Shown piece after piece: positions 58,597 through 63,605 of a stretch of 64,000 bases of DNA (its first letter is position 1; every line of letters begins with the position of its first letter). The translations under genes and the position numbers were made by a program. The notes beneath the pieces were generated by a model. The model made no database searches. It worked only from the letters and a program-made list of their open reading frames with translations, and was not told the DNA's origin. This DNA comes from Planotetraspora kaengkrachanensis (lineage in GTDB: Bacteria; Actinomycetota; Actinomycetes; Streptosporangiales; Streptosporangiaceae), in NCBI RefSeq assembly GCF_016862895.1, contig NZ_BONV01000031.1, positions 62,001-126,000 of the forward strand, read 5' to 3'.

Positions 58597-59106
58597 CTAC
58601 GCCGTGGCGGCCTCAGGGTGGTCGCCGGTGGCTCCGTCGATCAGCTCACGCAGGATGTCCATGTGGCCGGCGTGGCGGGCGGTCTCCTCGATCATGTGGA
58701 TGAGCACCCACCGCATCGTCACCGTGGCGCCGTGCCACGCCGTGCCGGCGGTCTCGACGTCGGCCTCCTCGATGGCCTTGTCCGCCGCCGCCCGCGCCCG
58801 CTCGTAGAACGCCAGGATCTGCTCGGTCGTCTCGTGCGGCAACACGTGCATGTCGACGTCCGGGTCGTCCTCGTCGCTCGGGAACGGCTCGGTCTCACGT
58901 CCGAAGGTCTCGCAGAACCAGCCGTACTCGACAGCAGCGAGGTGCTTGACCAGGCCGAGCAGGGTGGTGCCCGAGGGGGTCATCGGCCTTCGAAGCTGCT
59001 CGTCGTCAAGCCCCCGCAGCTTCCAGACGACCGCGTCGCGGTGGCGGTCGAGGCTGACGTGCAGGCTGGTCTTCTCGTCGGCGGTGTACGGCACGTTTCT
59101 CATCAT
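58597..59106 (-). CDS. DinB-family four-helix protein
   Basis: 169 residues from ATG 59106. A four-helix bundle with the metal-binding His triad of the DinB/YfiT family: His55 in GLVKHLAAVEYGWF and a pair in HMIEETARHAGHMDILREL. The sequence matches the actinobacterial group annotated DUF664/DinB, often mycothiol- or bacillithiol-dependent S-transferases. Convergent with the DsbA-like gene and on the same strand as the LLM and hemerythrin genes. Confidence 0.85.
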   Translation of the reverse strand: MMRNVPYTADEKTSLHVSLDRHRDAVVWKLRGLDDEQLRRPMTPSGTTLLGLVKHLAAVEYGWFCETFGRETEPFPSDEDDPDVDMHVLPHETTEQILAFYERARAAADKAIEEADVETAGTAWHGATVTMRWVLIHMIEETARHAGHMDILRELIDGATGDHPEAATA

Positions 59107-59169
59107 GGGCCCGACCGTAACAACCGGCCCCGACACTCCACCTACCGCGCCGGGCCCCCGCCTCGGCCG

Positions 59170-60081
59170 TCAGCCGATAAGGGCGCGGACTCTCGGCACG
59201 ACCTCTTCGGCGAACAGGCGGAACTGCGTGGCCGACTCGGCTGTGGGCCAGAAGACGAACGTGTCGAAGCGCAGCCGGACGGCCCAGTCGGCCAAGGTCT
59301 CGGCCCACAGTCCAGCCGGGCCGTTCAGCCCCTGACCACCGGTCTCGGGCCCGATCCTGCCGAGCACGTTGTAGATCCTGCGGATCCGGTTCGGGTCGCG
59401 GCCGGCATCGGACGCCGCGTCGTCGATGATCTCCTGCAGCGGCGGCACCTCGTCGGGCGAGATGTAGATGTTCAGCGGGCACACCCATCCATCGGCCAGC
59501 TCACCGATGAGGCGGAGCATCCGCGGCTTCTGCGCGCCCACCCACAGGCCGATCTCACGGCTCGGCGCAGGGCCGGGCCGGTAACCCCGAATCCGGTGAT
59601 GCTCGCCGAGCAGGGCGAACGGGCGAGAGCCCCAGGCCGCCCTGATGACCTGCAGGGCCTCCTGCGTGGCCCTGACGTTCTCCGCGGGTGTCCGCGTGGG
59701 GCCGCCCATCCCGGCGATGGCGTCCGCGAACGCCCCCGCGCCCACGCCGAGCTCGATCCGGCCGCCGCTGAGCAGGTCGAGCGAGGCGGCCGCCTTGGCG
59801 AGCATCGCCGGCGGGCGCAACGCGAGGTCGGCGACGTCGGGGAAGAACCTGATCCGCTCCGTCCTGGCGGCCAGGTGGGTGATCAGCGTCCAGACGTCGA
59901 GGAACCCCGGCTGGTACGGATGATCCTGGATGGCCACGAGGTCGAGCCCGCCGGCGTCGGCGATCCGCGCGAGGTTCGTGATCTCGTCGACGGCTGCGGC
60001 GTCGGGCGTCACCGACACGCCGAACAGGACGGGCGGGCGCGACGCGTTCACTGCCCTGTTCACTGTCCTGTTCACTGCCAT
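59170..60081 (-). CDS. LLM-class oxidoreductase, probably F420-dependent
   Basis: 303 residues. A luciferase-like barrel with VLFGVSVTPDAAAVDEITNLARIADAGGLDLVAIQDHPYQPGF, SGGRIELGVGAGAFADAIAGMG and VWVGAQKPRMLRLIGELADGWV style motifs, as in F420-dependent reductases. ATG 60081 lies inside the end of the hemerythrin gene, so the two are coupled. The first codons form three 12-bp tandem repeats (60048-60083) encoding NRTVNRAVN-like sequence, an unusual leader for this family. Confidence 0.87.
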   Translation of the reverse strand: MAVNRTVNRAVNASRPPVLFGVSVTPDAAAVDEITNLARIADAGGLDLVAIQDHPYQPGFLDVWTLITHLAARTERIRFFPDVADLALRPPAMLAKAAASLDLLSGGRIELGVGAGAFADAIAGMGGPTRTPAENVRATQEALQVIRAAWGSRPFALLGEHHRIRGYRPGPAPSREIGLWVGAQKPRMLRLIGELADGWVCPLNIYISPDEVPPLQEIIDDAASDAGRDPNRIRRIYNVLGRIGPETGGQGLNGPAGLWAETLADWAVRLRFDTFVFWPTAESATQFRLFAEEVVPRVRALIG

Positions 60082-60083
60082 GG
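60048..60083. repeat. Three 12-bp tandem repeats at the LLM start
   Basis: GTTCACTGCCCT, GTTCACTGTCCT and GTTCACTGCCAT follow each other at 60048-60083 (plus strand). They encode the first residues of the LLM protein and overlap the end of the hemerythrin gene. Slippage could change the copy number. Confidence 0.6.
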
Positions 60084-60593
60084 CCATCTGCTCCACTTCC
60101 GCAACGTCGGGTTGATCGACCTCTCCTCGAAGTCGAGATGCTCCAGCAGGTGCGTGCCCAGGTCGGTGAGCGCGTCGACCAACCGCCGGCGAGTGCCGGC
60201 GTTCTGACCGTCACCGAGGGCCTTCGTGAGGTCTTCGACCGTGTCCAGGAGGACGGCCACCTTCTTGTGGTCGGCTTCCAGGCGGTCGACCGTCCGCCCG
60301 AGAGAGGGGTCGCTCCGGCGCAGGGCGGGGAACAACGCCGCGCTCTCGGATTCGTGATGGTGATGGACGAACTGGCAGTACTGCAGGCAGTTGACCCGCA
60401 ACTGCCACAACGGCCCCCGCGTCTGCAGGGAGCGGATCGTCGTCGTGATCTGCGATACGGCGGCTCCTGAGGCCACCTTGGCGGCTAGCTCCTGCACGGT
60501 CCGGAGATCCTGCCGGACCATGCCGTGGACCCAGGCGAGCTCGCGCACCAGATGCTCTCCAGGCGCCCCCGGCGAGACCTTGCGTTCAGTCAT
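60072..60593 (-). CDS. Hemerythrin-domain protein
   Basis: 173 residues, a four-helix di-iron protein. Candidate ligands are His23 (WVHGM), the His77-80 cluster followed by Glu81/Glu83 (FVHHHHESESAALFP), His109 (EADHKK), and His152 with Glu156/157 (EHLDFEER). Such domains sense oxygen, iron or nitrosative stress, or store iron. It is divergent from a MarR regulator with a clear operator-like region between, so it is probably induced by the regulator's signal. Confidence 0.85.
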   Translation of the reverse strand: MTERKVSPGAPGEHLVRELAWVHGMVRQDLRTVQELAAKVASGAAVSQITTTIRSLQTRGPLWQLRVNCLQYCQFVHHHHESESAALFPALRRSDPSLGRTVDRLEADHKKVAVLLDTVEDLTKALGDGQNAGTRRRLVDALTDLGTHLLEHLDFEERSINPTLRKWSRWPWQ

Positions 60594-60672: not shown

Positions 60673-61140
60673 GTGGCACTCGAGGACCTTCCGATGGCGA
60701 CGGCCGACACCGACCGGCTCGGGTTGCTGCTGGCCCGGCACGGAGCGATCACCAACATCCGCATCCGCGACGCACTCGGCGCCAACGGGCTCACTCCGCG
60801 AAAGGGCGTCGCGCTGATGAACCTGGCGAGGACCGGGCGGATGAGCCAGCAGGCGCTCCTGGAGACCCTCGAGGTCGACCCCAGCGTGCTCGTCGTGATC
60901 CTCAACGACCTCGAGCGCGACGGCCTCGTCGAGCGACGCCGCGACCCCGCGGACCGGCGGCGTCACATCGTGGAGATCACCCCGGCCGGACGGAAGGCCC
61001 AGGCCGTGGTCGAGGACGCGATCGCGACCGTGGAGCGCGAACTGTTCGCCGACCTCGACGACGAGCAGGTCGCCCAACTGCGACTGCTCCTCTCCCGGGT
61101 CAGGACCTCGATCAACGACCCGGCCTGCACGGAGGCGTGA
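60673..61140 (+). CDS. MarR-family transcriptional regulator
   Basis: 155 residues from GTG 60673 (ATG 60694 would trim seven). The winged helix is MSQQALLETLEVDPSVLVVILNDLERDGLVERRRDPADRRRHIVEITPAGR, with the D-x-R wing. It is divergent from the hemerythrin/LLM pair, which it probably represses. No Cys in the domain, so sensing by thiol oxidation is unlikely. Confidence 0.9.
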   Translation: MALEDLPMATADTDRLGLLLARHGAITNIRIRDALGANGLTPRKGVALMNLARTGRMSQQALLETLEVDPSVLVVILNDLERDGLVERRRDPADRRRHIVEITPAGRKAQAVVEDAIATVERELFADLDDEQVAQLRLLLSRVRTSINDPACTEA

Positions 61141-61259
61141 CCACACCGCCCGGCCTTTCCGGCACCCCCCGAGGCGTGGCGCCGATGATTGCGACGTCTT
61201 AGCCCTCCCTTCTCCGCGCTTTGTGCTGTTCGTGATGATCTGTGACCTACGTTCATTCA

Positions 61260-63605
61260 ATGACCCATTGTGACGTAATACACTCAAAGAGTTACTGGTT
61301 GTCCGTGTTGCGCAATGACGTTCCTGCGTCGCTTGTGGTGTTCCTGGTGGCGGTTCCGCTGTCGCTGGGCATCGCGGTCGCGTCAGGGGCGCCGATCGCC
61401 GCCGGCCTGGTGGCCGCGGTCATCGGCGGAGTCGTGGCGGGCGCCATGGGGGGATCGGTCGTGCAGGTCAGCGGACCCGCGGCGGGGCTCGCGCTGGTCG
61501 TGGCCGAACTCGTGCACAAGTTCGGCTGGCGGGTGACCTGCATGATCACACTGCTCGCCGGGCTGCTGCAGTTGTTGCTCGGCCTCGCCCGCGTCGCCAG
61601 GGCGGCGCTCGGCGTCTCACCGGCGGTCGTCCACGGCATGCTCGCCGGCGTGGGCATCGTGATCGCGTTGTCGCAGGTGCACATCGTGCTCGGCGGCAAA
61701 CCCCAGAGTTCCGCGGTGGACAACGTGCTCGCGCTGCCCGCGCAGATCGTCAATCACCACGGCCACGCCGTCCTGATCGGCCTGCTCACCGTGGGGGTCC
61801 TGCTGGTGTGGAGGCGGCTGCCGAAGGTCCGCGTCGTGCCCGCGCCGCTGGCTGCCCTGCTGATCGCCGCGGTGCCCGCGGCCCTGCTCGGCTGCCTGAC
61901 CAAGGTCGACCTCTCCGGCGGCTTCTCCTCGCTCCAGCATCCGCTGCTGCCGCAGGGTGAGTGGTTCGCCGTCGTGTCCGCCGTCCTGCTCGTCGCGCTG
62001 CTCGCGGGCGTGGAGTCACTGCTCACCTGCGTCGCGTCCGACCGGATGCACTCCGGGCCGCGGGCCAACCTCGACAGGGAGCTCACCGCCCAGGGCGTCG
62101 CCAACGTCATCTCCGGCGCGTGCGGCGGGCTCCCGGTTGCCGGCGTGGTCGTGCGGACCACGACCAACGTCCGGGCGGGGGCGCGCAGCCGCTGGTCGAC
62201 GGTGCTGCACGGCGTGTGGATCCTGGTGTTCGTCACGGCCTTCGGCTGGCTGATCGGGCTCATCCCGATGGAGGCCCTCGCCGCGTTGCTGATGTTCATC
62301 GGTGTTCAGATGGTCAACCTCGGCCACGCTCGCAACCTCCGCAACCATCGGGAGATGCCGATCTACTTCGTGACGATGGCCGGCGTCGTGGTGATCGGGC
62401 TGGCGGAAGGCGTCGCCATCGGCCTCGGGCTGGCCGCGATGTTCGCGCTGCTCCGGCTCACGAGGGTCTCCGTGCGGGCGCGGGCCGCCGACGACGGACG
62501 ATGGAGGATCGCCGTCGACGGCTCGCTCACCTTCCTCGCGGTCCCCCGGCTGACCAAGGCGCTGGCCGCCGTACCGTCCGGAGCGGCCGTCGACCTCGAC
62601 CTCAACATCGACTTCATGGACAACGCCGCCTTCGAGGCGCTGCAGGCATGGCGCCTGGAGCACGAGCGCGGCGGCGGCACCGTGGACGTCGACGAGGTGC
62701 ACAGCGAGTGGTACGTCAACGCGGTCAGCGGCACGCGGACATCTCAGGGAAAGACGCACATGCGCCACGACCAGTGGTGGCTGCCCTGGGCCCACCGTCG
62801 TGGCAGCCTCGATGCCGCTTCGCCGTCGGGCGCGTGGCAGGAACCCGCGCACACGGACCACGCGGACGTCTCGGACCGCTCGGATGTCCCGGTCGGCGCC
62901 GACGCCCGCACCGCCGCACTCGGCGTGGCGCCGGTCGCCGGTGACGCCCAGGCGGACGACGATCCGGCGCTGCCCGGCCTGATGGAGGGCACGCGTGAGT
63001 TCCAGCGGCGGACGGCGCCGCTCATGCGTCCGCTCCTGCACGGAATGGCCCGGCGGCAGGCGCCCACGCACCTGTTCATCGCCTGCGCAGACTCGCGGGT
63101 CGTGCCGAACCTCATCACCTCCAGCGGGCCCGGAGACCTGTTCACCACGCGGAACATCGGAAACCTGGTGCCTCACGCCACGAGCGCGCCGCCCGACGAG
63201 TCGGTCACCGCCGCGATCGAGTACGCCGTGGGAGTGCTGGAGGTGCGGACGATCACGGTGTGCGGTCACTCGGGATGCGGCGCGATGGCGGCTCTGCTGG
63301 GCACCACGCCCGACCTTCCCGGGTTGCGCGGCTGGCTCCGCCACGGGCGGCCCAGCCTGGACCGGTTCCGGTCCTTCGAGGAGTCGGAGGGTCCGCTCCC
63401 CGATGGCGGCAGGCTCGACCTGCTCTGCCGGATCAACGTGATGCAGCAACTCGACAACCTGCGCACCCATCCGCTCGTCGACGATCGCGTCCGATCGGGA
63501 CGGCTCGAGCTGACCGGCCTCTACTTCGACATCGGGACGGCACGCGTGCACGTGCTCGACGAGGACGGTTTCGTCCCGGTGCTCGAGCGGACGGCGACGG
63601 GGTAA
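61260..63605 (+). CDS. SulP-type anion transporter fused to beta-carbonic anhydrase
   Basis: About 781 residues (start between 61242 and 61303 is uncertain; no clear ribosome site). Residues 20-400 form the SulP transporter (RNDVPASLVVFLVAVPLSLGIAVASGAP; GACGGLPVAGVVVRTTTNVRAGARSRWSTVLHG), followed by a STAS-like piece (420-480), a linker and a full beta-carbonic anhydrase with zinc ligands Cys609 (ACADSRV), His670 and Cys673 (CGHSGCGA). It likely imports bicarbonate and interconverts it with CO2 at the membrane. Similar fusions are known, but natural roles are unproven. Confidence 0.9.
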   Translation: MTHCDVIHSKSYWLSVLRNDVPASLVVFLVAVPLSLGIAVASGAPIAAGLVAAVIGGVVAGAMGGSVVQVSGPAAGLALVVAELVHKFGWRVTCMITLLAGLLQLLLGLARVARAALGVSPAVVHGMLAGVGIVIALSQVHIVLGGKPQSSAVDNVLALPAQIVNHHGHAVLIGLLTVGVLLVWRRLPKVRVVPAPLAALLIAAVPAALLGCLTKVDLSGGFSSLQHPLLPQGEWFAVVSAVLLVALLAGVESLLTCVASDRMHSGPRANLDRELTAQGVANVISGACGGLPVAGVVVRTTTNVRAGARSRWSTVLHGVWILVFVTAFGWLIGLIPMEALAALLMFIGVQMVNLGHARNLRNHREMPIYFVTMAGVVVIGLAEGVAIGLGLAAMFALLRLTRVSVRARAADDGRWRIAVDGSLTFLAVPRLTKALAAVPSGAAVDLDLNIDFMDNAAFEALQAWRLEHERGGGTVDVDEVHSEWYVNAVSGTRTSQGKTHMRHDQWWLPWAHRRGSLDAASPSGAWQEPAHTDHADVSDRSDVPVGADARTAALGVAPVAGDAQADDDPALPGLMEGTREFQRRTAPLMRPLLHGMARRQAPTHLFIACADSRVVPNLITSSGPGDLFTTRNIGNLVPHATSAPPDESVTAAIEYAVGVLEVRTITVCGHSGCGAMAALLGTTPDLPGLRGWLRHGRPSLDRFRSFEESEGPLPDGGRLDLLCRINVMQQLDNLRTHPLVDDRVRSGRLELTGLYFDIGTARVHVLDEDGFVPVLERTATG

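Follow-up and report, generated by a model that had tools for sequence, protein, structure and literature searches.

Fusions of SulP transporters with carbonic anhydrases (CAs) are said to have been described by Felce and Saier, reportedly in a sequence study, and to have been proposed there as bicarbonate transporters. In Rv3273/CanC of Mycobacterium tuberculosis, the CA domain has a reported kcat of 4.3 x 10^5 per s (PMC6834203), and Rv3273 is worded as an experimentally validated bicarbonate transporter in PMC6458275. A canC (Rv3273) knockout is reported to leave survival in macrophages unaffected (PMC11895460). For the SulP-CA of Streptomyces, import or export is called an open question (PMC5489568). 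The two proteins are also encoded by neighboring genes. In Acidithiobacillus ferrooxidans, can2-sulP transcripts are reported to drop as CO2 rises (PMC6458275), and in Methylococcus capsulatus, a beta-CA gene and a SulP gene are described as sharing an operon (PMC11423575). In published SulP trees, CA-associated SulPs stand apart from sulfate transporters (PMC12596568, PMC6458275), and in one of these trees they group with BicA (PMC12596568).

Here, we describe a SulP-STAS-beta-CA fusion encoded in a stretch of 64,000 nucleotides from Planotetraspora kaengkrachanensis (contig NZ_BONV01000031.1, positions 62,001 to 126,000), called the window below. The protein is probably an SLC26-type transporter, most likely for bicarbonate, with its own tethered CA. 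The kinetics of the CanC CA domain and the separation of CA-associated SulPs from sulfate transporters favor this reading. The unaffected macrophage survival of the canC knockout counts against it, as does the result that a search of open-licence PMC papers yielded no measurement of transport for any SulP-CA fusion. The original prediction called the roles of such fusions largely untested, which is fair but incomplete, as both the kinetics and the knockout of Rv3273 have been published.

Gene architecture and the CA active site

The fusion is a single intact ORF, with the SulP domain first and the beta-CA second according to the ORF translation and Pfam (Table 1). The predicted joining of a SulP transporter and a beta-CA is borne out by the Sulfate_transp and Pro_CA matches in this one ORF. 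The frame (61242-63605, plus strand) encodes 787 aa from GTG 61242 and 781 aa from ATG 61260; residue numbers of the window fusion are counted from GTG 61242. ATG 61260 is the better-supported start, because L014 and the identical L016 and L060 each have a stop two codons behind their counterpart of GTG 61242, and because the codon aligned with 61260 is a GTG in L014, L015, L016 and L060 and an ATG in the second copy, L011. This codon comparison with relatives favors the start that had been proposed from the window sequence. The fusion is no assembly accident, since 60 fused ORFs can be aligned and fused relatives are found in named species of several genera. These relatives, with approximately 50-92% identity in the best segment, include species of Planotetraspora, Microtetraspora, Sphaerisporangium, Actinomadura and others.

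A MarR gene lies upstream in five of five Planotetraspora copies examined (the window, L013, L014, L015 and L016), and MarR is a possible candidate regulator of the window fusion. An operon was also considered for the window copy. The MarR gene is kept in Planotetraspora, but the neighbors of the second copy differ, so no partner gene is proposed. In the same region of the window, the minus-strand frame 58597-59136 has a Pfam mycothiol-S-transferase match of 176 bits and lies two genes from a hemerythrin-domain protein at 60072-60593.

Sulfate_transp (PF00916) matches residues 23-372 with 223.5 bits. In Foldseek searches with an AF2 model, the SulP part resembles BicA (6ki1_A; TM 0.80 by target length, 25% identity) and SLC26Dg (5iof_A; TM 0.79 by target length). 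The whole-protein model has a mean pLDDT of 59.7, mostly below 60 in the CA part, and was therefore used for the membrane domain only. Behind this domain, the STAS-like piece of the original prediction is a STAS domain by predicted fold, with a sequence match under the cut-off. For the full-length protein, Pfam gives no STAS match with a threshold as loose as E <= 10, and the excised piece reaches 20.8 bits with STAS_2 (PF13466) against a cut-off of 29.2. A separate AF2 model of the piece (128 residues, mean pLDDT 75.7, block means of 88-95 over model residues 11-80) has the STAS domains 3lkl, 6m36 and 3oiz as its top PDB matches, with SLC26Dg at rank 11. At the level of predicted structure, a real but divergent STAS domain after the membrane domain is confirmed.

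In the WWLPWAHRR stretch of the linker, W, W, P and R are invariant across the 22 rows of alignment A1. Of 69 fused ORFs, 53 have the motif WWxPW; among the 16 without it, at least four (L047, L051, L058 and L113) are ORFs whose searched part ends before the linker. The motif was considered as a fusion-specific coupling device and rejected, since the second copy carries an altered form and the fusions L069, L070, L072/L159 and L075 from outside the family lack it. Judged from the alignments, WWxPW is a feature of the family and no general rule for fusions.

Pro_CA (PF00484) matches residues 611-769 with 152.1 bits. All zinc ligands that had been predicted to be intact are present, together with the Asp-Arg pair of beta-CAs (C615, D617, R619, H676 and C679). 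Relatives were gathered by one contig scan (47 loci) and genome searches, and 60 fused ORFs covering both query ends were aligned (59 distinct, including the window's own and the second copy), leaving out nine other ORFs with a partial match. C-x-D-x-R and H-x-x-C are kept in 60 of 60 aligned fused ORFs. When nine survey ORFs are added, the count is 69 of 69, with 77 rows scanned, eight failing rows excluded as shadow frames of real genes, and L159 being the same locus as L072. Because all aligned fused ORFs keep the pattern, the CA active site is conserved over proteins down to approximately 50% identity, which favors a transporter with a working CA of its own. A loss of zinc ligands in Actinomadura fusions was considered and rejected; the site reads CVDSR, and every ligand is kept in the alignment.

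Table 1. Features of the fusion gene and its upstream neighbor, in window positions.
Feature	Position	Strand	Basis or detail
MarR-family regulator	60673..61140	+	Pfam; 119 bp upstream of ATG 61260
SulP-STAS-beta-carbonic anhydrase fusion gene	61260..63605	+	Start ATG 61260; frame opens at GTG 61242
SulP/SLC26 membrane domain	61308..62477	+	Residues 23-412; Pfam PF00916 and Foldseek
TM3 Ala80	61479..61481	+	At BicA Thr69; A 60, T 1 of 61 fused rows
TM8 Glu258	62013..62015	+	At BicA Asp258; E 52, A 7, Q 2 of 61 fused rows
TM10 Arg305	62154..62156	+	At BicA Gly304; Arg in 61/61 fused rows and 18/18 unfused SulPs
Divergent STAS domain	62466..62702	+	Residues ~409-487; sub-cut-off STAS_2 match and predicted fold
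Variable linker	62712..62960	+	Residues ~491-573; low identity to second copy
WWLPWAHRR stretch	62775-62801	+	Between STAS and CA, in linker
Beta-carbonic anhydrase domain	62961..63581	+	Residues ~574-780; Pfam PF00484; PDB relatives 1ddz, 5swc, 1i6o
CA active site C615-A-D617-S-R619	63084..63098	+	Translation and alignment
CA zinc ligands H676-S-G-C679	63267..63278	+	Translation and alignment

The second copy, the distribution of fusions and CA-less relatives

The window's assembly (8.77 Mb, 96 contigs) contains a second full SulP-STAS-CA fusion of 758 aa on contig C10 (L011:8302-10578). The two copies are 72% identical in the genome search and 69% over 783 columns. By domain, the identity is 79% in SulP, 69% in STAS, 70% in the CA and 31% in the linker (16 of 51 aligned residues, residues 501-573). 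The genome also encodes one unfused SulP on contig C5, two small beta-CAs of 169 and 164 aa, and, side by side, two ABC sulfate-permease matches above cut-off. No match to the RuBisCO large subunit was found in the genome, and the heterotrophic setting named in the original prediction is borne out to this extent. Because of the second fusion and the two small beta-CAs, a single deletion may show nothing and would then not refute a role in CO2 metabolism.

The C10 copy is surrounded by genes for an ABC transporter, an AfsR-type regulator, a PEBP protein and an NAD-dependent epimerase. These neighbors are common to Microtetraspora and Sphaerisporangium, and some of them to Actinomadura. The neighbors of the window copy are common to Planotetraspora only, among loci L011-L059. 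The C10 type is the copy in shared surroundings, and the window type is seen only in Planotetraspora. Five Planotetraspora-type copies form a group with the window copy in the tree (100/100), and the C10 copy pairs with L061, which comes from a different genus of the family (100/99); both groups are sisters (99/96). Since L061 joins the C10 copy, the two copies diverged no later than the two genera did. The origin of this split is either an older duplication with loss in the L061 genus, in which G059 has one match, or a transfer within the family.

The surroundings bear on a reading of the protein as a CO2/bicarbonate sensor, in which the CA and STAS domains would signal the inorganic-carbon status to a partner, with transport in a secondary role. 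Family knowledge has it that STAS domains bind signaling partners, and the MarR gene upstream of all five Planotetraspora copies, the window included, would suit such a role. We regard a sensor as very improbable, as no MarR neighbor was found at the second copy and the SulP motifs and CA residues are kept as in a working transporter and enzyme.

A fusion was counted where SulP and CA matches lie in the same open frame or where one match spans both. Of the 61 genomes in the sample of the window's family, 33 have at least one fusion as read from the match table. Seven of the 61 have a match and no fusion, and for the other 21, which include several fragmentary assemblies, the search at E <= 1e-30 gave no match. 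In the phylum sample, 18 of 149 genomes have a match and seven a fusion (the window's own genome, G083, G098, G110, G188, G199 and G068); G134, with a long open frame, is not counted.

SulP and CA domains were compared in quick trees, with a warning of a long-branch join of L082-L084 with the outgroup. Among 46 SulP domains, 27 fused and four CA-less ones stand together (support 98), and six cases of a CA gene before the SulP gene form a separate group with three CA-less SulPs (support 100). In the CA tree, the fused CAs stand apart from the paired ones (100). Inside the fused clade, CA-less SulPs occur at three places (L078/L079, L089 and L090; support 91 for the place of L089). From their positions in the tree, these are best read as CA losses. 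In L090 (5217-6731, minus strand), a close SulP relative ends right after STAS, with the CA missing in place. The epimerase gene of the usual neighborhood still lies behind the shortened gene, and the genome, G057, has only two short Pro_CA matches elsewhere. Since some members of the fused clade lack the CA, the transporter can be retained in its absence, which counts against a transporter bound to its own CA. SulPs of the CanC-like clade are stated in PMC6458275 to be always beside or fused to a CA; if both clades are the same, the CA-less members qualify this statement.

Eighteen unfused SulPs comprise six with an upstream CA gene, two outgroup SulPs without a CA and ten for which a model built on the fused CAs found no CA in the retrieved sequence, which often breaks off at a contig end. 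In the six (L085, L086, L088, L091, L092 and L093), a beta-CA gene lies directly upstream of a GPAAG-type SulP on the same strand, in an order opposite to that of the fusion. L130 and L134 are SulPs with GPVAI in TM3, each followed directly on the same strand by a CA-like gene (53.7 and 43.3 bits with the model of the fused CAs). The association of CA and SulP in several forms, as fusion, with the CA gene upstream and with the CA gene downstream, favors a shared function in bicarbonate transport.

A survey of 65 SulP ORFs in 63 loci, which were the 60 best-scoring loci plus L001, L011 and L096 and no random sample, includes 11 fused ORFs, ten of the GPAAG type and one with GPSAA (L129). L128, from the same genome as L090, is of the GPAAG type yet CA-less. 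The remainder consists of 13 Q-[VI]-[ST]-GPT ORFs, the two with a downstream CA gene (L130 and L134) and 38 others. Near these 13 and 38 SulPs, no CA was found in the 1.5 kb that flank the Pfam match on either side, a distance partly taken up by the SulP gene. In addition to its fusion, Actinomadura kijaniata carries another SulP frame (L036:5473-7571, minus strand; 671 aa, 41% identity), whose end is overlapped by a same-strand CA frame (207 aa, 40%).

The putative anion site and the direction of transport

In BicA, HCO3- is bound by Thr69 and Ala301, and Na+ by Asp258, Thr262, Gly300 and Thr302 (PMC13249358). These sites were transferred to the fusions by a HMMER alignment, in which the structure chain is numbered one lower than BicA. 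Residues were counted in 61 fused rows, with the window counted twice and L016 and L060 identical. Besides the positions in Table 1, Thr262 of the window stands at BicA Thr262 (T 13, C 43, S 3, G 2), Gly301 at Gly300 (G 59, S 2), Val302 at Ala301 (V 60, A 1) and Val303 at Thr302 (I 45, V 13, A 2, M 1). Two of the six site residues are identical in the window fusion (Thr262 and Gly301), one is changed from Asp to Glu, and the others are Ala, Val and Val, which counts against bicarbonate transport in the manner of BicA. With NCBIfam NF050096, the BicA family, the window SulP scores 137.3 bits against a cut-off of 880; on this score and the site residues, BicA orthology was rejected.

The TM3 motif GPAAG occurs in 60 of 61 fused rows and in 10 of 10 CA-less clade members examined. 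GPAAG was rejected as a mark of CA association, given its presence in CA-less members and its absence in L130 and L134, which have an adjoining CA gene. As far as the alignment can tell, it marks the clade, not the CA.

Arg305 aligns with an Arg of prestin in the HMMER alignment, and we take it, from this alignment and family knowledge, to be the equivalent of SLC26A6 Arg404. With few BicA residues kept and this invariant Arg aligned with that of prestin, a Na+ symporter like BicA does not suggest itself as the model. The fusions are unlikely to share a Na+ site of the BicA type as their mechanism; from the aligned residues, a reasonable guess is an anion site lined by Arg, like that of SLC26 exchangers. 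In SLC26A6, the conserved Arg404 at the ion site is reported to be required for coupled Cl-/HCO3- exchange (PMC10328499). Even full conservation of the BicA site is no guarantee of transport, because RintRC_4851 keeps all six site residues, yet is reported to have no activity (PMC12596568).

One special case of the preferred reading is an Arg-type exchanger that would export bicarbonate, made by the CA from respiratory CO2, for chloride or another anion, and would thus serve pH control and CO2 disposal, not carboxylase supply. The same Arg, present in 18 of 18 unfused SulPs, is no mark of bicarbonate exchange, its match to Arg404 is the assumption just named, and direction cannot be read from sequence. 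Arg305 in every fused row, at a position where BicA has Gly, would agree with such an exporter in light of the exchange by SLC26A6 (PMC10328499), and so would the lack of a RuBisCO match in the genome. Direction is called open for Streptomyces too (PMC5489568), and the printed tree, in contrast, puts CA-associated SulPs with BicA, a Na+ symporter (PMC12596568). Export is possible on this evidence, although we lean against it.

The cargo could also be another anion. The SulP part would then carry sulfate, dicarboxylate or some other anion, and the CA would be a passenger, merely anchored to the membrane. Many anions are moved by SulP family members, and the three separate CA absences in the fused clade point to a transporter able to work on its own. 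DauA, a dicarboxylate transporter (NF008660), is the best NCBIfam match of the SulP part, which counts against bicarbonate, though its 183.4 bits are far below the cut-off of 614. The sulfate permease model TIGR00815 gives 146.8 bits against a cut-off of 380.45. Because the adjacent ABC sulfate-permease genes exist in the genome, a sulfate route exists without the fusion, and this favors bicarbonate. Together with the repeated association of CA and SulP genes in differing orders, this makes a passenger CA unlikely.

We return to the SLC26-type transporter with its own tethered CA. The SulP/STAS part would act as an elevator transporter of the SLC26 type, probably as a dimer, and its cargo would be a small anion. 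Bicarbonate is the likely substrate of the window fusion. The C-terminal beta-CA would lie on the cytosolic side, next to the inner mouth of the transporter. There, it would interconvert bicarbonate and CO2, keeping the transport gradient steep and buffering the HCO3-/CO2/H+ pool. Bicarbonate supply to carboxylases and pH control, as originally suggested, are plausible roles. A wider conjecture, which is tentative and rather doubtful as a whole, takes the SulP clade with GPAAG and the TM10 Arg as bacterial Arg-type bicarbonate exchangers with a site unlike that of BicA and often with a tethered or adjoining CA. In heterotrophs, these would serve mainly CO2 clearance and pH, and the extra Planotetraspora copy would be specialized for another condition.

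If the transport side were shown, the function of a protein found in many soil actinobacteria would be settled. It would also tell whether heterotrophs gain or dispose of bicarbonate via CA-tethered transporters. With natural fusions, separate gene pairs and CA-less relatives of the same clade at hand, the reason for linking enzyme and transporter can be tested cleanly.

Comparison with described systems

Mycobacterium tuberculosis belongs to a different order of actinobacteria. Its Rv3273/CanC (mtCA 3, 764 aa) resembles the window fusion by description, with an N-terminal SulP, a C-terminal beta-CA and conserved zinc ligands (PMC6834203). Unlike CanC, which stands beside CanA and CanB, the window fusion belongs to a genome with two fusions and two small CAs. 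The Streptomyces SulP-CA is of the same fusion kind and has received the same proposal as a bicarbonate transporter (PMC5489568). In contrast to the fusions of Felce and Saier and of Streptomyces, the window copy is an additional one, is seen only in Planotetraspora and has a divergent STAS under the Pfam cut-off.

In A. ferrooxidans, can2-sulP is likewise a proposed functional pair of beta-CA and SulP (PMC6458275), but consists of two genes in an autotroph, whereas the window fusion is a single gene. The same source ties STAS to SulP clades without a CA (PMC6458275), whereas the window fusion has a STAS fold and a CA in one protein. BicA (6ki1), the cyanobacterial Na+/HCO3- symporter, shares the SulP fold and the STAS domain with the window fusion and, unlike it, has no fused CA. 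The window fusion is a member of the already described SulP-CA kind, Rv3273/CanC included, and an extra copy in a soil actinobacterium. What is added here is the second copy, the cryptic STAS, the non-BicA site and the CA-less clade members, which are useful for test design and make no new system.
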